Shown here piece after piece: positions 29,353-41,045 of a stretch of 64,000 nucleotides of DNA. The stretch comes from Flectobacillus sp. BAB-3569. GTDB lineage: Bacteria > Bacteroidota > Bacteroidia > Cytophagales > Spirosomataceae. Position 1 is the first letter of the stretch, and each line of letters opens with the position of its first letter. A program made the translations under genes and the position numbers. The stretch lies in assembly GCF_002270355.1 (NCBI RefSeq), contig NZ_NJFZ01000006.1, positions 62,001 to 126,000 of the forward strand. Direction: 5' to 3'. A model generated the notes under the pieces. It was not told the DNA's origin and did not search any database. It saw only the letters and a list, made by a program, of their open reading frames with translations.

Positions 29353-30615
29353 TTAGACCAAAAATGTAAATAAATCTGGTTTTTCGTTGAGTAATTGGTA
29401 TTGGATTTTATTTTCCTCCATACGCATAAGAAGAGGGTCAAAATCTTCTTTGTATTTTAACTCAATGCCAAGCAAAACAGGTCCAGACTCACGGTTGGTT
29501 TTCTTTTGGTATTCAAAATGGGTAATATCATCGTTTTCGCCCAATACATTATTAAGGAAATTTCTCAATGCTCCAGCACGTTGCGGAAAACGAATAATAA
29601 AGTAATGTTTCAATCCTTCGTAAAGTAAAGAACGCTCTTTTATTTCTTCGGTACGAGTAATATCATTGTTGCCTCCCGACACCAAGCATACTACATTTTT
29701 ACCTTTTATTTCTTCTTGTAAAAAATCCAAAGCAGCAATTGTCAAAGCACCCGCTGGCTCTGCTACAATCGCCGATTCGTTATATAATTCTAAAATAGTG
29801 GTGCATACCTTTCCTTCAGGTACCACAATGATATCATCGAGGGTTTGCTTACAGATTTCGAAGGTTTTATCGCCTACACGCTTTACAGCTGCTCCGTCCA
29901 CAAATTTGTCGATCGTTTCCAATTCTACCACATGCCCAGCATTGATACTTGCTTTCATAGATGGTGCCCCTTGTGGCTCAATCCCAATGATTTTGGTATG
30001 TGGAGAAAGTTGTTTAAATACCGTAGATGTGCCAGCCGCAACACCACCGCCACCGATAGCCAAAAGAATATAATCTATTTTGACATCGGCATCCTTAAAA
30101 ATCTCTAAACCAACCGTGCCTTGTCCTGCAATAACGTCCATATCATCGAATGGATGCACGTAAGTAGCATTTTGTTGCTCACAGTAGATTTTGGCCGCAT
30201 TGGAAGCATCGTCATAGGTATCGCCAACCAACTGAATATCGATATGTTCACGACCAAACATTTTCACGGATTTAATCTTTTGATTTGGGGTTGTAGTAGG
30301 CATAAAAACTGTACCCTTCACCTTCATTTTATGGCAGGCATAGGCCATACCTTGAGCATGATTACCTGCACTGGCACATACAACACCTTTATTGAGAGCC
30401 TCTTTCGATAACTTTACCATTTTGTTGTAGGCTCCACGAATTTTGTAAGAACGCACAATTTGGAGGTCTTCGCGTTTCAAGAAAATATTAGCCTGATAAC
30501 GTTCTGACAAAATAAGATTTTCCATCAAAGGCGTGTGAGAAGCCACGCCACGGAGGCATTCTGCCGCATCATAGATGCTTTCGAGCGAAGGAAATTGTGC
30601 TGTTCGTGTATTCAT
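29353..30615 (-). CDS. ilvA: Threonine ammonia-lyase (threonine deaminase)
   Basis: IlvA converts threonine to 2-oxobutanoate, the first committed step to isoleucine, in the cytoplasm with PLP. The 420 residues show the PLP-lysine region LKREDLQIVRSYKIRGAYNKM, the phosphate-binding GGGGVAAG loop and SGGNND. The C-terminal part (about 325-420, HYFIIRFPQRAGALRNFLNNV) is one ACT-like regulatory domain, so it is shorter than the 514-residue E. coli enzyme with two. It lies downstream of ilvC on the same strand, but a gap of over 500 bases with repeats separates them, so its own promoter is likely. Confidence 0.95.
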   Translation of the reverse strand: MNTRTAQFPSLESIYDAAECLRGVASHTPLMENLILSERYQANIFLKREDLQIVRSYKIRGAYNKMVKLSKEALNKGVVCASAGNHAQGMAYACHKMKVKGTVFMPTTTPNQKIKSVKMFGREHIDIQLVGDTYDDASNAAKIYCEQQNATYVHPFDDMDVIAGQGTVGLEIFKDADVKIDYILLAIGGGGVAAGTSTVFKQLSPHTKIIGIEPQGAPSMKASINAGHVVELETIDKFVDGAAVKRVGDKTFEICKQTLDDIIVVPEGKVCTTILELYNESAIVAEPAGALTIAALDFLQEEIKGKNVVCLVSGGNNDITRTEEIKERSLLYEGLKHYFIIRFPQRAGALRNFLNNVLGENDDITHFEYQKKTNRESGPVLLGIELKYKEDFDPLLMRMEENKIQYQLLNEKPDLFTFLV

Positions 30616-31128: not shown

Positions 31129-32172
31129 CTAGTTTCTTTCTGGACGAAGGCTACGTACAGCTGCACCAGCTCTCCACATTTCAGACTCACGAAGCTCTTC
31201 TAATTCAGCTTCCAACTTCACGCGGTAGTCAGGTTGAGAGTTCAAAGTGATAGAACGCTCAGCTTCAGCTTGAGTTTTTACAGAGTTGTACAATTGAGCG
31301 AATACAGGCTTAGTAGCTTCTTTGAAAGGTCTCCACCAGTCCAAAGCACCACGTTGAGCTGTTGTAGAGCAGTTAGCGTACATCCAGTCCATACCGTTTT
31401 CAGCTACTAATGGCATTAAAGATTGAGTTAACTCTTCAACTGTTTCGTTGAATGCTTCAGATGGAGAGTGACCGTTTTCGCGCAATACTTCGTATTGAGC
31501 AGCAAAGATACCTTGGATAGCACCCATCAAAGTACCACGCTCACCAGTTAAGTCAGAAGTTACTTCTTTGTAGAAGTCAGTTTCGAACAAATAACCTGAA
31601 CCTACACCGATAGCCATAGCGATACATTTCTCACGAGCTTTACCAGTAGCATCTTGGTAAACAGCGAAAGAAGAGTTCAAACCTTTACCTTCTACGAACA
31701 AACGACGAAGAGAAGTACCTGAACCTTTAGGAGCTGCCAAGAATACGTCAACATCTGCAGGAGGAACGATACCAGTTTTCTCTTTGTAAGTGATACCGAA
31801 TCCGTGAGAGAAATACAATGATTTTCCAGCAGTCAAATATTTCTTAACAGTTGGCCACAATTCGATTTGAGCAGCATCTGAAAGCAAGTAGCAAATGATA
31901 GTACCTTTTTCTAAAGCTTCTTCGATTTCGAACAAAGTTTCACCTGGAACCCAACCGTCAGCTACAGCTTTGTCATAAGTTTTACCTTTACGTTGACCAA
32001 CGATTACGTTCAAGCCGTTATCTTTCATGTTCAAAGCTTGACCAGGACCTTGTACACCGTATCCAATTACAGCGATAGTTTCATTAGCCAATACTTCTCT
32101 TGCTTTTTCTAATGGGAACTCCTCACGAGTCACGATATCCTCTACCACTCCGCCAAAATTAATTTGTGCCAT
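31129..32172 (-). CDS. ilvC: Ketol-acid reductoisomerase
   Basis: IlvC carries out the second common step to valine and isoleucine, isomerising and reducing acetohydroxy acids with NADPH and Mg2+. The 347 residues show the Rossmann motif GYGVQGPGQALNMKDNG, the cofactor stretch VGQRKGKTYDKA and the metal-binding region DLTGERGTLMGAIQGIFAAQYE. The size fits the short class I enzyme. Codon use appears optimised for high expression. It is 115 bases after ilvN in the ilv run; that gap has short ACTCAACACTC repeat words. Confidence 0.97.
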   Translation of the reverse strand: MAQINFGGVVEDIVTREEFPLEKAREVLANETIAVIGYGVQGPGQALNMKDNGLNVIVGQRKGKTYDKAVADGWVPGETLFEIEEALEKGTIICYLLSDAAQIELWPTVKKYLTAGKSLYFSHGFGITYKEKTGIVPPADVDVFLAAPKGSGTSLRRLFVEGKGLNSSFAVYQDATGKAREKCIAMAIGVGSGYLFETDFYKEVTSDLTGERGTLMGAIQGIFAAQYEVLRENGHSPSEAFNETVEELTQSLMPLVAENGMDWMYANCSTTAQRGALDWWRPFKEATKPVFAQLYNSVKTQAEAERSITLNSQPDYRVKLEAELEELRESEMWRAGAAVRSLRPERN

Positions 32173-32287: not shown

Positions 32288-32821
32288 TTACACCACTTCC
32301 CAGTTGCCTTCTGGAAGGTATTCTACCAAGCCTTTTTCTGTTTTACCAACAGCCACACGACCTGATTTTAAGTATTCAAGAATTTCCCAGTTTTTGATAT
32401 ATTCATAAAATTCTGAGATTTCTTGTTCTGTACCATTTTTCTCGATTACTACATAATCAAGACCCCAGTGTACAACTTTTGCATTCCAGTCAAGGTTGAT
32501 TTCTTTGATGTTCAAAGGAGTACCCCCTAGTGGTGTTGCGATTTTGAAAAGGGCGATTTCGTTGAAAACGATTTCGTGGTCAAGGTATCCAAATACCGCT
32601 AATACATCGACTACCTTACGGATTTGGCGAACGAGTTTTTCAACAGCCTCGCGCGAATCGTGACGGATAACGATAGTAAAACGAGATACACCTACGCGCT
32701 CGGTTTCACATACGGTCAACGATTCGATGTTCAAGCGTCTACGAGTAAAGATAATCGTAATACGGTTGAGCAAACCGATGGTATTGGAAGTAAATATGGA
32801 TAACGTGTATGTTGTTTTCAT
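32288..32821 (-). CDS. ilvN: Acetolactate synthase small (regulatory) subunit
   Basis: The 177-residue protein begins with an ACT domain (about 4-75: YTLSIFTSNTIGLLNRITIIFTRR) that binds valine for feedback inhibition of the IlvB catalytic subunit, followed by the C-terminal ALS small-subunit domain. The length equals the usual bacterial IlvN/IlvH. The pairing with ilvB is broken by an acyltransferase gene lying between the two on the same strand, which is unusual since ilvB and ilvN are normally adjacent. Confidence 0.96.
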   Translation of the reverse strand: MKTTYTLSIFTSNTIGLLNRITIIFTRRRLNIESLTVCETERVGVSRFTIVIRHDSREAVEKLVRQIRKVVDVLAVFGYLDHEIVFNEIALFKIATPLGGTPLNIKEINLDWNAKVVHWGLDYVVIEKNGTEQEISEFYEYIKNWEILEYLKSGRVAVGKTEKGLVEYLPEGNWEVV

Positions 32822-32862: not shown

Positions 32863-33881
32863 TTAAACTTTACGAGAAAGACTCATAGCTGGCTTTTCTA
32901 TAATTCGATAGTAGATATAAGCTATACCTATTGTACTAATTAAAACGCCTATTCTGTATACTAGGATTAAACTTGGTCTATGGATATATGGCTCTAAAAT
33001 CGGCAATAATGCAACTGTAACTGGTACATGTATTAGATATAAAGAGAAAGAGATTTTTCCTAAAAAGTCTAAGACACTTATTTGCTTTTTTATAAAAAAA
33101 ATAAAACCGATGGCAAAGATTGTTGCTAATGTAATTGGAATAGCCGTATCTAAATGTAAGATTTGGCTGAGCCAGTAATAATTTAGGATTAATACAAAAG
33201 CAGACCCAATCAGCATTTCAGGTAATTCTATAATTCTAATGACATACTGAAATGCAAAAATGCCAACCATAAATATGAGGATATGAGAGTGAAAAAATAA
33301 GCTCCCAACCCACCAATAATTAAGTCCAAATAGTAGCAAATATGCAACGTGCCTAATCCAAAAGTTTTTGTTCGTTATTAATCCGAAAAACAATCCTATG
33401 TATAAGTAAAATTGTAATTCTACAAACAGTGTCCAATATGCATGATTAATGAACTCTTTACCCCAAAAAACATTGAGATAACCAATATTGAGTAACACCG
33501 TGGTCCAATCAAGATCAAGAGGTTTGTTTCTATAAACAAAATGCTCAATAAGCTTTAAAAGCACTAATAGCGCAATAGAAGCCACATATGGTAATTCAAT
33601 TCGAACGAGTCGTCTTTTGAATAGATTACCAAAGTTTTGAATATCATACTTATTTCTATACATAGATAGTGGTATGATAAACCCTGAAATCACAAAAAAA
33701 ACTTGAACGCCTAAGTATCCATATTCTGATGCTTTTACTAATAATTTGCTTGCTGGAAGTAATTTTTGTTCTGAAAAAAATGAACAAAGTACACTGCTAA
33801 ACACGCTATTCCTCTCAGCATTTGCACAGAATGTATCTGACTTTTATTGTAAACTTGTTCTCTTAGACTTTCAAATTTCAT
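32863..33881 (-). pseudogene. Acyltransferase 3 (OafA/YrhL-like) membrane protein, apparent frameshift
   Basis: Acyltransferase-3 proteins add acetyl or other acyl groups to surface sugars and have about ten membrane helices. The main frame (32863-33804) lacks the family N-terminus. Reading the other frame from an ATG at 33881 gives MKFESLREQVYN and then SVQMLRGIACLAVYFVHFF with the conserved Arg and His; adding one base to the A7 run at 33774-33780 (T on the coding strand) joins it to SEQKLLPASKLLV and YGYLGVQVFFVISGF. So the gene appears intact apart from one missing base. Its place between ilvB and ilvN, 102 and 41 bases from each, is surprising for a cell-surface enzyme. Confidence 0.85.
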
Positions 33882-33983: not shown

Positions 33984-35729
33984 TTACTCTAAAATTACAT
34001 TAGTAACACATGTACCAGCTGGTACCATTGGGAACACGTTTTCTTCTTTTTCACAGATAATTTCAAGCAAATAAGGTTTATCTGAGTTCAACAAAGTGTC
34101 TAGTGATTCTGAAAGTTGAGCACGATCAGAAACGGTGTGTCCTGCAATACCAAATCCTTTTGCGATCGTGATAAAATCAGGGTTTTGTAATTCTACAAAT
34201 GAATAGCGTCTGTCGAAGAATAACTGTTGCCACTGGCGTACCATTCCAAGGAAATTATTGTTCAGAATGATGATTTTAACAGGTAAGCCACTTTGAGCAA
34301 TTGTTCCCAGCTCTTGAAGAGTCATCTGGAAACCACCATCACCGATAATTGCTACTACTTCACGGTCTGGAGCACCAACTTTAGCACCAAATGCCGCTGG
34401 AAGTGCAAAACCCATGGTTCCAGCACCACCTGAAGTTACACTTGAGAATGGCTTTTTGAAACGATAATAACGATTTGAAATCATTTGGTGCTGACCAACG
34501 TCGGTAACTGTCACGGCCTCACCTTTTGTTTTCTCAGAAAGCATTACTACTGCTTCACCCATTTTGATTTGGTCGCCGTCGTGGAAAATATCTTTCTTCG
34601 TGATTTTTTCGTATTCGATAGCATCGTATTTAGCAAACTCAGCACGCCATTCAGGGAAAGAGTTTTGGTTTACTAAAGGAATCAACGCTTTCAAAGCTTC
34701 TTTCGCATCGCCCACAACTGGTGCATCGGCAAATACGTTTTTATTGATTTCTGCAGGGTCAATTTCGATATGGATTACTTTAGCTTGCTTCGCATAAGTA
34801 TTCAAATCACCTGTAATGCGGTCGTCAAAACGCATACCAATAGCAATAAGCACGTCACATTCATTAGTTAATACGTTTGCACCGTAGTTACCGTGCATAC
34901 CTGGCCAGCCTACATATAAAGGGTGATCAGCATCAACTGCCGACATACCCAACAACGTTGTTGCTACAGGAATTCCAGTTTTTTCAATAAACGCCTTTAA
35001 CTCATCTTGAGCATCGGCCAACAATACTCCATGACCAGCCAAGATATAAGGCTTTTGAGCTGCATTAATTAATTTGGCTGCTGCCTCAACATGTTCTTGC
35101 TTAGGTACAGTACGAGGACGATAGCTAATAATATCCACTGATTTTGGATAGTGGAAAGGCTTCGTCATTTTATCAGTTTGTGCTGTACGAGTAATATCAA
35201 TCAATACAGGACCTGGACGACCAGCTTCTGCAATATGAAATGCTTTTGCAATAATTTCTGGAATCTCATTGGCATCTACCACTTGGTAGTTCCATTTTGT
35301 AATAGGCATTGAAATACCAATGATATCACATTCTTGGAAAGCATCAGTACCTAACAAATTGCCTTTTACTTGACCCACAATACAAACCATTGGGGTAGAG
35401 TCTAGCATGGCATCAGCAATAGGAGTCATGAGGTTAGTTGCTCCCGGACCAGAAGTCACCATTGCGACACCTGCACGGTTTGTCATACGAGCATAACCTT
35501 GTGCTGCGTGACCTGCACCTTGCTCATGGCGCACCAGAATGTGCTTGAGTCTATCTTGATAATCATAAAGCGCATCATAAGTAGGCATGATGGCGCCACC
35601 CGGATAGCCGAAGATTGTATCAACACCTTGCTCGACTAAAGATTGCATTATGGCCTGCGCGCCCGTAAGAAACTGTTCTGTTTCTTTTGCTTTGGGTTCT
35701 GCGGTCATGGTTTGTGTCTGTGCTGCCAT
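33984..35729 (-). CDS. ilvB: Acetolactate synthase large (catalytic) subunit
   Basis: IlvB is the ThDP/FAD enzyme that makes acetolactate and acetohydroxybutyrate, the branch point for valine/leucine and isoleucine. The 581 residues have the N-terminal pyrimidine-binding domain (IFGYPGGAIMPTYDAL, VRHEQGAGHAAQGYAR with the catalytic Glu), a central FAD/linker domain and the C-terminal ThDP domain with GDGGFQMTLQELGTIA and NNNFLGMVRQWQQLFF. All the expected residues are present. It is in the ilv run, after a GT-C-like membrane gene and before the acyltransferase. Confidence 0.97.
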   Translation of the reverse strand: MAAQTQTMTAEPKAKETEQFLTGAQAIMQSLVEQGVDTIFGYPGGAIMPTYDALYDYQDRLKHILVRHEQGAGHAAQGYARMTNRAGVAMVTSGPGATNLMTPIADAMLDSTPMVCIVGQVKGNLLGTDAFQECDIIGISMPITKWNYQVVDANEIPEIIAKAFHIAEAGRPGPVLIDITRTAQTDKMTKPFHYPKSVDIISYRPRTVPKQEHVEAAAKLINAAQKPYILAGHGVLLADAQDELKAFIEKTGIPVATTLLGMSAVDADHPLYVGWPGMHGNYGANVLTNECDVLIAIGMRFDDRITGDLNTYAKQAKVIHIEIDPAEINKNVFADAPVVGDAKEALKALIPLVNQNSFPEWRAEFAKYDAIEYEKITKKDIFHDGDQIKMGEAVVMLSEKTKGEAVTVTDVGQHQMISNRYYRFKKPFSSVTSGGAGTMGFALPAAFGAKVGAPDREVVAIIGDGGFQMTLQELGTIAQSGLPVKIIILNNNFLGMVRQWQQLFFDRRYSFVELQNPDFITIAKGFGIAGHTVSDRAQLSESLDTLLNSDKPYLLEIICEKEENVFPMVPAGTCVTNVILE

Positions 35730-35797: not shown

Positions 35798-37093
35798 TTA
35801 GTTCTTATTTTCAGGAAAATCCCATTTTCCTGCTTTCCAGACTTCATACCATTCCTTCTCAAAAAGAATAGGAGGATGAGCTTGACCTAAAGTTTTTTGT
35901 CTAAATGCTTGGATATTGCTTAGATATACCAATTGGTTTGCTTTTATAATCGGTGTCATTTTGTAGTAAGTCATAAAGCAAAAAAGACTACTACCAACGG
36001 CACAGGCAAGACCAATCAGATAACTAAAATGTTGGCTAATTCTAGTGTTAGCAATCATTAATATGATTAAGCATCCAACTACTGCCGAGCCTATTTTGTA
36101 CCTTGGCGTTGAAATGGCTAAAACTACATCTCTGTTCATTGAAATCATACAACCTGTCGCTATCATTGCAATAAAAAAGGCAAATAGAAAAAGCTGTACA
36201 GGTTTCGAAAAGACCTGAATTGATATGAATTGAGCAAATACTAAATTTAGATTTAGTATTATTCCGATCATTACTATTATAGAACCTGCAATTATAGGAA
36301 TCCATTTTCCTGTACTTACACCTGTCAAACTTCCTAAATACCCCATTGAGCCTTGAAGTATTTGTACTGGACTAGAGTTGTGACTTTGATGTTGTACGCC
36401 AGATAAATAGATTAATATGACGATAAATCCGCCAATAGTCCAAATTATGCTAGCTTTTCTTGAACCTGCAATCCATAAGGTAATAGCTCCAGCTGGAAAG
36501 ACAACCATACCATTACCAGAAGTAAAAGTGGCAAAAATGCCAAATACAAATGCCCAGAGTAACTTTTTTGAACATTGAGGTACTTGTGCGATATTCCAAC
36601 AACTTAATCCTAGCCATAGATATATTCCAATATTTTGGACAGCTGCCATACCAAAGAACGTATTTTCGAAAAATTGCATTTGAAACAACGTATAACTTAT
36701 AGCTAGTGCATATACCCATGATTGTTGCATCTGACAAATTGCTCGATAGAAAATACTAGCAAGACCTATTAAGGTAAGATTACCAATCAATAATACTTTG
36801 TATATATCAACAGCTCCGTTGTCTGTTGTACCTACTAACCAAAAGATTAGCCTTGTAAATACGATTCTATGTTCATTGTGCGGAGTAAACCAGATTTCTA
36901 ATTCCTCCTTTAGGGTTATAGCTTTGTTAATATCAACTATTGTGGTCAATACAGCGAAATCGTCTAGTTGTGGACAGTCGATTCCCCAAAAGCAAACCCA
37001 TGTGTAATAGAGCAAGATTGGGAACAAAATCAGCAATACACTCCACCACTTTAGGTTTAATGTTTGCCATTGCCCCTTATTACTAAGGTTCAT
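35798..37093 (-). CDS. Multi-pass membrane protein, GT-C glycosyltransferase-like
   Basis: This 431-residue protein has about 10-11 hydrophobic segments. The first outside loop contains CPQLDDFAVL and later TPHNEHRIVFTRL, resembling acidic and H-x-R features of GT-C membrane glycosyltransferases that use lipid-linked sugar donors. I do not recognise the family. Base composition is more AT-rich than the flanking ilv genes, and the gene sits between ilvD and ilvB, where a surface-type gene is not expected. A terminator-like hairpin lies upstream, between ilvD and this gene. A role in surface-glycan modification is a guess. Confidence 0.55.
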   Translation of the reverse strand: MNLSNKGQWQTLNLKWWSVLLILFPILLYYTWVCFWGIDCPQLDDFAVLTTIVDINKAITLKEELEIWFTPHNEHRIVFTRLIFWLVGTTDNGAVDIYKVLLIGNLTLIGLASIFYRAICQMQQSWVYALAISYTLFQMQFFENTFFGMAAVQNIGIYLWLGLSCWNIAQVPQCSKKLLWAFVFGIFATFTSGNGMVVFPAGAITLWIAGSRKASIIWTIGGFIVILIYLSGVQHQSHNSSPVQILQGSMGYLGSLTGVSTGKWIPIIAGSIIVMIGIILNLNLVFAQFISIQVFSKPVQLFLFAFFIAMIATGCMISMNRDVVLAISTPRYKIGSAVVGCLIILMIANTRISQHFSYLIGLACAVGSSLFCFMTYYKMTPIIKANQLVYLSNIQAFRQKTLGQAHPPILFEKEWYEVWKAGKWDFPENKN

Positions 37094-37327: not shown

Positions 37328-39004
37328 TTATAAATCTGTTACACAACCCTCACTTGCTGAAGCTACGTTTTTCACATATTTGCGTAAAACACCTTGTTTG
37401 AATGGTGATTCAGATGGAGCCCAGCTTTTACGACGTTCTGCCAATTCTTCGTCAGATACGTGTAAATGAAGAATATTATTAACTGCATCAATCGTAATCA
37501 AATCGCCATCTTTTACCAATGCAATATTGCCACCTACCTGTGCTTCTGGTGTTACGTGACCTACAACGAATCCGTGTGTTCCACCTGAGAAACGACCGTC
37601 TGTGATCATCGCTACTTTGTTGCCCAAACCTGCACCCATGATAGCCGAAGTTGGTTTCAACATTTCTGGCATACCCGGGCCACCTTTAGGACCTTCGTTG
37701 CGGATTACTACTACCTGACCCTCTTTAATTTCTCCTTTTGATAAGTATTCGATTACTTCTTCTTCACGCTCACAAACCTTAGCAATACCTTCAAAACGTT
37801 CACCTTCTTTACCTGTAATTTTTGCTACAGCACCACCCGTTGCCAAGTTACCAAACAATACTTGCAAGTGACCTGTTGGCTTGATTGGACTTGTCAAAGG
37901 CTGAATGATTTTTTGTGAATCAAAATCCAATTCAGGAACATCAGCTAAGTTTTCAGCAATTGTTTTGCCTGTTACAGTCATACAATCGCCATGTAAAAAC
38001 CCCTCTTTCAATAAGTATTTCATTAATGCAGGAACACCACCGATTGAAAGCATATCTTCCATATAATACTTACCAGAAGGTTTCAAATCTGCAATTAGCG
38101 GAGTGCGGTCAGAAATAGCTTGAATATCTTTTAACGTAAATTCAACTTCAGCAGCGCGAGCGATTGCCAAATAGTGCAATACAGCGTTTGTTGAGCCTCC
38201 CATTGCCATTACCATGGTAAGCGCGTTTTCGAAGGCTTTACGAGTCATGATATCTCTTGGGCAAATATTTTGCTCCAATAAGTTTTTCATTGCTGCACCA
38301 ATAGCCAAACATTCAGCTTTTTTGCCTTCGTGCGTAGCTGGGTATGAAGAAGAGTTAGGCAATGTCAAACCCATAGCCTCCATCGACGATGCCATCGTGT
38401 TAGCCGTGTACATACCACCACAAGCACCAGCGCCTGGGATAGCGTTACGAATAACACCTTCATAATCCTCGTCAGAGATATTGCCTGCGAACTTTTTACC
38501 CAAAGCTTCAAATGCCGAAACGATATCTAATTTTTGACCTTTATATTCTCCAGTACGAATTGTACCACCATATACCAACATACCCGGACGGTTCAAACGA
38601 GCCAATGCCATCATGGCTCCTGGCATGTTCTTGTCACAACCTACTACTGCGATTACACCGTCGTACCATTGGGCACCTACTACGTTTTCGATTGAATCTG
38701 CAATCAAATCACGTGATGGCAATGAGTATGACATCCCGTTGTTACCGTTGGTCATACCATCTGATACGCCAATTGTATGGAAAATCAAACCTACCATTCC
38801 GTTCTCTTGAACACCTTTTTTCACATGTACCGACAATCCGTTTAGGTGCATATTACATGTGTTTCCTTCATAACCTGTACTAGCAATACCGATTTGTGCT
38901 TTTTGCATATCTTCGCTAGTAAGACCAATTCCATAAAGCATGGCTTTGGCTGCAGGGTTGGTTACTTCTTGAGTCAGTGTTTTTGAGAATTTGTTCAGTT
39001 CCAT
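37328..39004 (-). CDS. ilvD: Dihydroxy-acid dehydratase
   Basis: IlvD dehydrates dihydroxy acids to the 2-oxo acids of valine and isoleucine, using an iron-sulfur cluster. The 558 residues show the cluster cysteines in [23 protein letters not shown] and [20 protein letters not shown], and the C-terminal [19 protein letters not shown]. It is the first structural gene after the leader and attenuator at 39117-39238, so it should be controlled directly by branched-chain aminoacyl-tRNA levels. The ATG at 39004 follows an untranslated stretch of about 110 bases after the terminator hairpin. Confidence 0.97.
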
Positions 39005-39116
39005 AACTTGAAAAGATGCTTTAGACTCTGCCCGACAGGATAGAAAACACGAGTCAGAGGGTTTGTATTATTCTTCTATTTTTTGACTTATTTTAAGTTC
39101 GATATTTCTGGACAGC

Positions 39117-39151
39117 AAAAGACCTTTCTCAGTGTGTGAGAAAGGTCTTTT
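39117..39151 (-). terminator. Attenuator terminator hairpin of the ilv leader
   Basis: On the minus strand AAAAGACCTTTCTCA and TGAGAAAGGTCTTTT form a perfect 15-bp stem with loop CACAC, ending in four U. It begins 24 bases after the leader-peptide stop codon and lies 112 bases before ilvD. Its 5' arm and loop contain TCTCACAC, which is also complementary to GTGTGAGA at the leader stop (39174-39181), giving a competing structure. Confidence 0.88.
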
Positions 39152-39173
39152 CAATTATATACATAAAAGCCCG

Positions 39174-39181
39174 TCTCACAC
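39174..39181 (-). promoter_or_regulatory. Anti-terminator element overlapping the leader stop codon
   Basis: On the minus strand GTGTGAGA overlaps the last Val codon and the TGA stop of the leader peptide. It pairs with TCTCACAC in the 5' arm and loop of the terminator (39134-39141). A ribosome at the stop codon would cover it and let the terminator form; one stalled earlier would leave it free to block the terminator. The pairing is 8 bp and perfect; the regulation is inferred. Confidence 0.65.
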
Positions 39182-39238
39182 TTCACAGCGGAGAATCACG
39201 AGAACGAGAATGATATTTACAAATCCAGAAACTTTCAT
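39176..39238 (-). CDS. ilvL: ilv leader peptide (20 residues, eight consecutive Ile/Leu/Val)
   Basis: The tiny frame starts with ATG at 39238 and reads MKVSGFVNIILVLVILRCEV, then TGA. Residues 9-16 (IILVLVIL) are all branched-chain, and 10-11 of the 20 are Ile, Leu or Val. This is the composition of classic ilv leader peptides, whose translation senses charged tRNA for Ile, Val and Leu. It lies between a promoter-like box at 39282 and a terminator hairpin at 39117, upstream of ilvD. The order leader, anti-terminator, terminator, ilvD is what attenuation needs. Too short for normal gene finding. No Shine-Dalgarno site is visible, as usual in Bacteroidota. Confidence 0.85.
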   Translation of the reverse strand: MKVSGFVNIILVLVILRCEV

Positions 39239-39246
39239 AAAAAATT

Positions 39247-39260
39247 AGCGAAATTTCGCT
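39247..39260. promoter_or_regulatory. 14-bp palindrome AGCGAAATTTCGCT, copy near the ilv leader
   Basis: A perfect palindrome lies between the promoter box and the leader ATG (8 bases upstream of it). A second copy sits at 39489-39502 in the same gap; the two share TTAGCGAAATTTCGCT and a following TGTTTTTG. It could be an operator or an RNA hairpin near the leader start. Confidence 0.55.
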
Positions 39261-39281
39261 GATGTTTTTGTTAGTACTTTA

Positions 39282-39313
39282 CAAATATACAGAGGTATAT
39301 TTTTTAAATGCAA
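39282..39313 (-). promoter_or_regulatory. Putative ilv operon promoter
   Basis: On the minus strand TATATTTG (39282-39289) is an exact TAnnTTTG -7 box, with TTG at 39311-39313, 21 bases upstream, as the -33 element. Transcription would start near 39275, about 35 bases before the leader ATG. Confidence 0.65.
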
Positions 39314-39488
39314 GAAAATACCAAATAAAATTTTAGTAATAAATACTTATACCAATTTTAATTTTGGGAATTTTGATTCATTTTTAGTGATTTAAAACAG
39401 TTTTTTTTCAATTTATAGTATAAAATTCTGTTTCGATTCCCTCTTTTGAAATAATATTTTTATTGAAAAAAATACACAAAATGTATTT

Positions 39489-39502
39489 AGCGAAATTTCG
39501 CT
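39489..39502. promoter_or_regulatory. 14-bp palindrome AGCGAAATTTCGCT, second copy
   Basis: Identical to the copy at 39247-39260, 242 bases away, in the same orientation with the flanking TGTTTTTG. It lies 16 bases downstream of the serine hydrolase stop codon. The AT-rich stretch in between (39290-39480) holds no gene. Confidence 0.5.
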
Positions 39503-39518
39503 ATTGTTTTTGGGTAAT

Positions 39519-41045
39519 TTATTGCTTCTTCAAAAACTGGATAATTCCTGCATTAGGGAAGTCAATTTGTACTTGATCAATGGCACCTTTGAAGTTGGTC
39601 ATAAATTGAATTGGCATATTGTCGAGCATATCTTTTCCTAAAAAGTAATCATAATGAAAGTGAACTAATTCTATTGTTTGGTTATGATATTTGGCCATAA
39701 GCCCTTTATCAGATTTGTAAATTTGCAAGATTCCATAAGCTGGATGTTCATAAATTCCAGTGTAATTATCAATGTTGTGTGACATCGATGCAAACAATAT
39801 TCTATTGGCATTTTGCTCTTTCATTTTCTTTTCTTCTGCAAAAACTACGTCAGCTTTTTCCTGCTTCATACGACCATTCCAGTCTATTTCAGGAAGGTTA
39901 AAAAGCATATCTGTAAGGCTGTTTGTCACAACATTGACGAAGTAGTAATCGGCGGCGCTGCTGTTGGTAGTAATAAATATGCCTATATTATTGTTGGGGA
40001 AAAGCGTCATTTGCGAACGAAACCCTTCAATCGAACCATTATGTTGGAGCCTCTGAGCTCCACGATAAACATTTTGGTTCCATCCCATCCCATAAGTCGT
40101 AAACCCTAATTCGGGATATTTGGCTTCGGTTGGATATACCACGGTTAAAGGGATATGATTTTCTTTTAGGCTTTTACTAGAAATAATCTGTTGGCTCTCA
40201 TATTTGCCCTGTTGTAATTGCATCAAAAGCCAATGACTCATATCCTCGGCATTAGATTTTACAGCACCTGCTGGTCCGATGGCATCTACATTGCTTCCAA
40301 AACCAGCCTCTACTAATTGCTCTTCTTGTTTGCGATATGACTTGGCATAGTCGGTAGATTTGAATAATTCAGGGTAGGTTAATACCGTTTGATTCATTTT
40401 GAGTGGTTTGAGGAGGCGCTCTTCTACAAATTTTTCCCAAGTCATGCCACTGACTCTTTCTATCAAAACTCCCGCTACCATATACATCAAATTGTTGTAT
40501 TGATACTGTTCGTAAGGCTTTTTACTAAGTGTAAGATATTTTAAACTTTTAAAAATTGCTTTTCTATCAAGCGAGCTGTACAGCCATACAAAATCATGAC
40601 GAGGCAAGCCTGTTCTGTGCGAAAGCAAATCTTTTACCATAACAGTGTGCTCAGCTTCTGTATCATTTAATTCAAAGTCTGGCAAATAGTATTTGACGGG
40701 TTTGTTCCAGTCTACTTTTCCTTCATCTACCAAAATAGCCATAGCTGCTGCCGTAAAAGATTTACTACATGAGGCTATAGGAAATAGGGTTTGAGGGGTA
40801 ACAGTTTGTTTGGTTGTAGTATTTTTTTGTCCTAGGCCTACAGACCATAACACCTGACCGTCTTTTACGATACTGATTGCACATCCTGGTACTTTCCACT
40901 CTGTCATCCAGCCATAAATTTTCCCCTGCATGTTATGCAAGGCCAATTCGGTTTCGCTTAGCTTTGAAACTTTTTGGGCGTAGGAAACTTGTCCTATAAA
41001 TGAGAGTATAATTCCAAGTACGATGGAGTAAAGAAGTTTTTTCAT
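39519..41045 (-). CDS. Serine hydrolase, beta-lactamase (class C/PBP-like) family
   Basis: The 508-residue secreted protein has a signal peptide (about 1-23, ending SYAQ) and a beta-lactamase-like serine hydrolase domain. The S-x-x-K motif is SCSKS (about 92-96), Y-x-N appears as YQYNN, and the third motif is probably HNGSIEGF. The C-terminal 100 residues look like DUF3471, often found after such domains. Family members include esterases and D-peptidases, so antibiotic resistance should not be assumed. It is divergent from the first GMC module, and the gap between has two operator-like palindromes. Confidence 0.88.
   Translation of the reverse strand: MKKLLYSIVLGIILSFIGQVSYAQKVSKLSETELALHNMQGKIYGWMTEWKVPGCAISIVKDGQVLWSVGLGQKNTTTKQTVTPQTLFPIASCSKSFTAAAMAILVDEGKVDWNKPVKYYLPDFELNDTEAEHTVMVKDLLSHRTGLPRHDFVWLYSSLDRKAIFKSLKYLTLSKKPYEQYQYNNLMYMVAGVLIERVSGMTWEKFVEERLLKPLKMNQTVLTYPELFKSTDYAKSYRKQEEQLVEAGFGSNVDAIGPAGAVKSNAEDMSHWLLMQLQQGKYESQQIISSKSLKENHIPLTVVYPTEAKYPELGFTTYGMGWNQNVYRGAQRLQHNGSIEGFRSQMTLFPNNNIGIFITTNSSAADYYFVNVVTNSLTDMLFNLPEIDWNGRMKQEKADVVFAEEKKMKEQNANRILFASMSHNIDNYTGIYEHPAYGILQIYKSDKGLMAKYHNQTIELVHFHYDYFLGKDMLDNMPIQFMTNFKGAIDQVQIDFPNAGIIQFLKKQ

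Follow-up and report, generated by a model that had tools for sequence, protein, structure and literature searches.

A probable ribosome-mediated attenuator and a candidate operator pair upstream of the ilv gene cluster of a Flectobacillus genome

Organization of the ilv locus

The window analysed here is the whole 64-kb stretch of DNA, taken from a 6.6-Mb Flectobacillus genome. Its minus strand carries an ilv gene cluster preceded by a regulatory region and a further open reading frame (ORF), listed here in the order of the minus strand:

39519-41045, minus: ORF 5' of the regulatory region, ending 368 bp before the hairpin
37328-39004, minus: ilvD, dihydroxy-acid dehydratase (TIGR00110), the first gene past the leader, with its ATG at 39004
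35798-37093, minus: membrane-like protein without a Pfam or NCBIfam family, between ilvD and ilvB
33984-35729, minus: ilvB, acetolactate synthase large subunit (TIGR00118)
32863-33804, minus: acyltransferase-3 family protein (PF01757), between ilvB and ilvN
32288-32821, minus: ilvN, acetolactate synthase small subunit (TIGR00119)
31129-32172, minus: ilvC, ketol-acid reductoisomerase (TIGR00465)
29353-30615, minus: ilvA, threonine ammonia-lyase (TIGR02079)

The seven genes from ilvD to ilvA presumably form one transcript. The membrane-like protein (35798-37093) and the acyltransferase (32863-33804), which are encoded on the same strand, are unusual company for an ilv operon.

Reading along the minus strand, the ORF at 39519-41045 is followed by a distal palindrome, an AT-rich stretch, a promoter-like box, a proximal palindrome, the leader, the hairpin, and ilvD. 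The elements of the regulatory region are as follows:

39489-39502: distal palindrome AGCGAAATTTCGCT, candidate operator; the proximal copy is 242 bp away
39282-39313, minus: promoter-like element, consisting of TTG (39311-39313), a 21-nt spacer and TATATTTG (39282-39289)
39247-39260: proximal palindrome AGCGAAATTTCGCT, between the promoter and the leader ATG
39176-39238, minus: leader ORF MKVSGFVNIILVLVILRCEV followed by TGA, 20 codons
39191-39214, minus: sensor codons ATC ATT CTC GTT CTC GTG ATT CTC
39164-39182, minus: region 2, the antiterminator 5' strand, AGTGTGAGACGGGCTTTTA, overlapping the leader stop codon (pairing p 0.002)
39133-39151, minus: region 3, AAAAGACCTTTCTCACACA, the terminator 5' arm and loop, common to antiterminator and terminator
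39117-39151, minus: intrinsic terminator hairpin, a perfect 15-bp stem with a 5-nt loop and U4, -19.6 kcal/mol

All minus-strand elements named in the initial annotation are present, namely the promoter box, the leader with its TGA, the 15-bp hairpin ending in U4, and ilvD, as is the run of eight consecutive Ile, Leu or Val codons at 39191-39214; the palindrome pair was not mentioned there. The promoter consensus is TAnnTTTG. Bacteroidota largely lack Shine-Dalgarno sites, and inspection by eye found no such sequence 5' of the leader ATG. The block ATTGGTATAAGTATTTATTACTAAAATTTTATTTGG at 39321-39356, between both palindromes, looks well conserved in several relatives and is possibly a further regulatory site.

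Conservation of the leader and terminator

We scanned for short ORFs with a run of at least five (or, more loosely, four) Ile, Leu or Val codons followed by a terminator hairpin within 5-100 nt. In the 64-kb window, the site before ilvD has a run of 8, and the only two other matches were weaker, with runs of 5 and 4. For comparison, ilvD loci were collected from 90 of the 101 family genomes searched (plus 5 paralogues) and from 80 named contigs, giving 175 upstream regions, of which 164 were counted; the 11 left out were the paralogues L006-L010, L064 (N), the duplicates L119, L142, L145 and L156, and the short region L165. The relatives by ilvD similarity include Runella, Lacihabitans, Fibrella, Spirosoma, and Dyadobacter.

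A leader with a run of at least five, together with a terminator, was found in 44/164 regions, compared with 1/164 reverse complements and 0/820 shuffles. With a run of at least four, the numbers were 56/164, 3/164, and 2/820, respectively, and the scan found no such combination in the other 108/164 regions, Spirosoma and Dyadobacter included. A few leaders were missed by the scan and are present nonetheless (L012, which lies too far upstream, L017, L018, and L097). Matches outside the family, as judged from record titles, came from Flavobacterium, Lutibacter, Segetibacter, Sediminibacterium, Elizabethkingia, and an Ignavibacteriae genome. Within the family, the leader is present in 39 of 89 genomes, three of the 39 being without a detected terminator.

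The ORF at 39519-41045 shares its strand with the hairpin, with 368 bp between the two, so that the hairpin might merely terminate this upstream gene and the short frame might have arisen by chance. In 12 relatives, however, the hairpin lies 23-28 nt from the leader stop codon, whereas the closest long upstream frame varies in strand, length, and distance (a comparison of frames only). The leader-plus-terminator signature also occurs far above its frequency in shuffles, and a promoter-like box separates the upstream ORF from the leader; a terminator serving only the upstream gene is thus very unlikely. The distance from the terminator to ilvD in the 12 relatives is 19-190 nt.

The leaders favour codons that the window's genes seldom use. 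When leaders from other genomes were set against 11 genes of this window, CTC made up 0.39 of the Leu codons in the 52 leaders, 0.50 in the 12 near ones, and 0.06 in the genes; for GTC among Val codons, the values were 0.36, 0.23, and 0.04, respectively. Rare isoacceptors would sharpen the sensor, and pairing needs could account for part of the CTC preference. In the aligned runs of 25 of the 52 leaders, variable columns numbered 14, 4, and 18 at codon positions 1, 2, and 3, respectively (p 0.002, in a test that is partly self-selecting, since an uninterrupted run had been required when one group was matched). This avoidance of position 2 is a sign that the leader may be translated and lends weaker support to the attenuator reading.

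Terminator and antiterminator

The leader-terminator stretch folds more stably than 200/200 shuffles (z -4.5). The weak point of the terminator is its U-tract, which has only four U, all paired inside the stem, and is followed by GC.

The initial annotation had noted an 8-bp complementarity between GTGTGAGA at the leader stop and TCTCACAC in the hairpin. This match is exact, and the true helix is larger, at 16 bp, formed by AGTGTGAGACGGGCTTTTA and AAAAGACCTTTCTCACACA. The annotation's single short element shared by the two structures does not hold, as the antiterminator occupies the entire 5' arm of the terminator. As two strands, the duplex has -21.0 kcal/mol and the terminator hairpin -19.6 kcal/mol, values that are not strictly comparable because the duplex carries no loop cost.

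To compare this pairing across species, the RNA from 24 nt before the leader end to the terminator was paired with the terminator 5' arm and scored against its own shuffles. The sample comprised 52 of the 56 matches with runs of at least four; L058, L106, L113, and L115 were left out by hand, as their chosen frames are not leader-like, although L058 has a better leader than the frame chosen. Pairing was significant at p ≤ 0.05 in 45/52 leaders and at p ≤ 0.01 in 34/52, compared with 0/52 in the control with the reverse-complement arm. In L004, the antiterminator is kept with GGTATGAGA and TCTCATACC. No significant antiterminator was found by this test in 7/52 leaders, five of them from Flavobacterium. 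Applied to E. coli, the same test was significant for thrL but not for leuL (p 0.28) or ilvL (p 0.31), and it therefore misses some real attenuators; region 2 of leuL and ilvL probably lies further upstream than the tested stretch.

We aligned 16 of 23 listed segments from near relatives. In the antiterminator helix, 82.6% of cells can pair, against 42-69% in slid versions, and its covariation score was matched by 4/500 shuffles. Double-sided changes were confined to two pairs, a number equalled in 295/500 shuffles and exceeded by one slid version. The terminator hardly varies in the near group and showed no covariation there. The initial annotation had proposed to look for conserved leader codons and covarying stems in relatives; the antiterminator pairing is conserved, and covariation proper is thin, with none in the terminator of the near group. 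The two features on which that annotation had staked its reading, the short frame and the alternative pairing, both recur in relatives (44/164 and 45/52, as given above).

Dependence of the fold on ribosome position

In equilibrium folding, the terminator made up at least half of the ensemble in 48/52 leaders even with a stalled ribosome. The known attenuators thrL, leuL, and ilvL of E. coli behave alike, with a terminator fraction of 0.80-0.99 throughout, so this measure is blind to switching, and we rejected it as a proof of the switch. Since equilibrium favours the terminator even for a stalled ribosome, any switching would have to be kinetic.

A co-transcriptional measure, in which the pairing of the terminator 5' arm with upstream RNA is calculated for a transcript ending in the terminator loop, does separate the states. 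Over the 52 leaders, mean arm pairing was 0.66 with the ribosome stalled and 0.13 with the ribosome at the stop codon (0.35 and 0.24 in the shuffled null). The stalled value exceeded the stop value by more than 0.2 in 51/52 leaders, and in 37/52 it was significantly higher (p ≤ 0.05) than in shuffles of the same leader; a stricter mark, with at least 0.3 when stalled and at most 0.1 at the stop, was reached by 26/52. The window leader gave 0.78 stalled, 0.05 at the stop, and 0.79 without a ribosome. In the same model, the E. coli leaders thrL, leuL, and ilvL gave about 0.3-0.6 at the sensor codons and 0-0.02 at the stop, so that in these leaders, as in the window leader, the terminator 5' arm is predicted to pair upstream during a stall but no longer once the ribosome reaches the stop.

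The four-segment design of the trp type includes a 1:2 protector hairpin, which brings termination back if the leader goes untranslated. In the window, no such protector is predicted without a ribosome (0.79 vs. 0.78 stalled), unlike in the textbook trp design. A 1:2 protector was seen in the full-length minimum-energy fold and was set aside, as it is not favoured in the co-transcriptional model. Given the arm pairing of 0.79 without a ribosome, read-through is predicted to go up rather than down if the leader is no longer translated. The predicted fall from stalled to stop is the same as in thrL, leuL, and ilvL, in line with the classic enterobacterial ilv logic proposed in the initial annotation.

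Proposed attenuation mechanism

The anatomy, its conservation, and the alternative pairing, together with the dependence on ribosome position predicted in a simple fold model, point to control of the ilvDBNCA gene cluster by ribosome-mediated transcription attenuation, a reading to which we assign a probability of roughly 0.9. Leader conservation, alternative pairing, and the co-transcriptional model (51/52) all support the attenuator interpretation first put forward from this sequence. RNA polymerase would start just past TATATTTG and transcribe the 20-codon leader. A shortage of charged Ile-, Leu- or Val-tRNA would make the ribosome stall within the eight-codon run, leaving region 2 free to pair with the terminator 5' arm while the 3' arm has yet to be transcribed; with the antiterminator formed, the polymerase would continue into ilvD. 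With an ample supply, the ribosome would reach the stop codon and cover region 2, the terminator would form, and transcription would end. The start site, translation of the leader, the efficiency of termination, and the response to amino acid supply are those we infer from this arrangement.

A riboswitch or T-box would likewise consist of an RNA leader and a terminator ahead of a biosynthetic operon, but would sense the amino acid or tRNA directly and leave the leader frame untranslated. In Rfam, the 64-kb window matched no family at the gathering score, and a permissive search of 38990-39520 (E ≤ 10) returned 11 matches, all below their gathering scores and none of them a T-box. The conserved part, moreover, is a frame of Ile, Leu, and Val codons, and direct sensing by the RNA appears extremely unlikely.

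The palindrome pair before ilvD

Allowing at most one mismatch, the palindrome occurs in 76/164 ilvD upstream regions, compared with 1/1640 shuffles. Two copies (at most two mismatches) are present in 12 regions from four genera, spaced 238-242 bp apart with 0-4 gap positions, even though identity in the intervening DNA falls to as little as 56%. In 12/12 of these regions, exactly 21 nt separate TATATTTG from the proximal copy. Of 77 regions, 16 have the box TAnnTTTG in the 60 nt preceding the palindrome (shuffle mean 5.35), and other palindrome regions show box variants, such as TTATTTG, by eye. Looping is a natural guess, because 242 bp corresponds to 23 turns at 10.5 bp.

The source genome contains exactly five copies of GCGAAWWTTCGC and none of the reversed control. 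Two of the five sites lie before ilvD, one before a glyceraldehyde-3-phosphate dehydrogenase gene, one between malate synthase and an XRE/IrrE regulator gene, and one ~64 nt before an SCP2-domain gene. Five copies of AGCGAAWWTTCGCT were found in each of the five genomes searched from the genus. Across the family, 69/101 genomes have an exact copy of the palindrome, compared with 6/101 for the reversed control.

The palindrome arms are conserved as sequence and the variation is mostly central, a pattern that fits RNA or DNA function alike. We favour a DNA site over an RNA hairpin because the palindrome sits between divergent genes (L182) and keeps a fixed distance to the promoter box.

Among 89 of the 101 family genomes, those with a usable upstream region, 32 have both leader and palindrome, 41 the palindrome only, 7 the leader only, and 9 neither; both layers therefore occur separately. 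At loci without the leader (L132, L143, L147, L152, and others), the palindrome often lies 35-57 nt before ilvD. In six genomes checked, the copy before ilvD is the sole exact genomic copy, at about 35 nt (G011 and G057) or about 150-170 nt (G053, G065, G086, and G095) from the gene. In several genera (L017, L018, L161), inspection by eye showed a second short motif, GCAATTACGC, located 3' of the promoter-like box and 5' of the palindrome.

A candidate regulator

The gene beside the palindrome at L182 encodes a candidate regulator:

L182:1579-3012: candidate XRE/IrrE regulator gene, with HTH_3 and Peptidase_M78/IrrE domains

Its best NCBIfam match is RamB, at 45.8 bits and well below the cut-off of 700. 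Among the best-scoring 30 loci from the 87 genomes with a match, an exact palindrome lies within 400 nt 5' of the regulator gene in 15/30 (0/600 in shuffles), and malate synthase flanks the gene in 11/30. The regulator gene is present in 73/73 genomes with the palindrome before ilvD and absent from 13/16 without it (n = 89); the Fisher value of 4e-13 overstates this co-occurrence because the genomes are related, and the counts by genus are 26/0/3/2 (p 0.02). Two observations count against the candidate. In several genera (e.g., g15, g24, g27, and g31), the palindrome is found before ilvD while the regulator gene lacks it. Conversely, the regulator and its palindrome are present in G048 and G036, with no copy before ilvD.

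Paracoccus RamB is described as an ScfR regulator with a link to malate synthase and the glyoxylate cycle, and as a tetramer in solution that goes to dimers with CoA compounds (PMC10370305). By analogy, a RamB-type tetramer could bridge two sites. The RamB boxes reported in that source are two near-identical sequences 18 bp apart, whereas the 14-bp palindromes here are 242 bp apart.

The conserved palindrome, its fixed spacing, and the co-occurrence with the regulator gene suggest looped operator control above the attenuator. Taken further, the operon might be controlled mainly by a RamB-like XRE/IrrE regulator binding the two palindromes, with the attenuator in a secondary role: the palindrome precedes ilvD in 73/89 family genomes vs. 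39/89 for the leader, and both its distance to the promoter and the spacing of the pair are fixed. Such control, however, leaves the leader unexplained, the leader occurs without the palindrome in 7/89 genomes, and palindrome binding is itself a candidate only; attenuator and operator can also act jointly. We consider a mainly operator-driven operon rather unlikely.

A broader reading, which we hold tentatively and at somewhat below even odds as a whole, places the ilv operon under two stacked switches, the charged-tRNA attenuator and looped operators, about 23 turns apart, bound by the RamB-like XRE/IrrE regulator. In this reading, the regulator would also control itself, malate synthase, glyceraldehyde-3-phosphate dehydrogenase, and the SCP2-domain gene, and some genera would have dropped the attenuator and others the operator.

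Comparison with known systems and implications

Like E. coli ilvL, leuL, and thrL, the attenuator proposed here carries its regulatory codons in the leader; the E. coli terminators lie 16-20 nt past the stop codon. It differs from them in belonging to another phylum and in having no Shine-Dalgarno-like site. Compared with leuL and ilvL, its antiterminator begins at the leader stop codon, where the same test finds none in the E. coli leaders.

In the papers found, leader-peptide attenuation in Bacteroidota is mentioned only in passing (PMC9723704, PMC7366714). For Flavobacterium psychrophilum, of the same phylum, a passage reports 'strong clues' of attenuation by leader peptides upstream of amino-acid operons (PMC9723704), a suspicion that resembles our case, with leader peptides before amino-acid biosynthesis operons; the passage gives no operon or sequence and 'ilv' is absent from the main text, whereas a single locus is analysed in detail here and tested comparatively. 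The Bacteroides thetaiotaomicron transcriptome paper mentions similar short frames (PMC7366714). Cases from Bacteroidota may already be included in a comparative attenuation study of 2010 (Lopatovskaya et al.; cited in PMC4833913). The Bacteroid-trp RNA (RF01692; PMC2864571) is also a candidate cis-regulatory RNA of Bacteroidetes, its name suggesting trp genes; unlike the present leader, it has no match in the 64-kb window. In the literature searched, mostly at listing level, neither the ilvD leader nor the palindrome was found to have been described. The kind of attenuator is thus already known, and is suspected in Flavobacterium (PMC9723704), while the operator pair, as a candidate, is the newer part.

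Leader-peptide attenuation works only if ribosome and polymerase are tightly coupled and if translation of a very small gene starts efficiently. A well-delimited, widely conserved attenuator makes such coupling directly testable in Bacteroidota. The palindrome, in turn, offers a very small candidate regulon (five exact genomic sites) together with a testable candidate regulator. If the two stacked switches are true, branched-chain amino acid synthesis would be tied to acyl-CoA or glyoxylate-cycle status.
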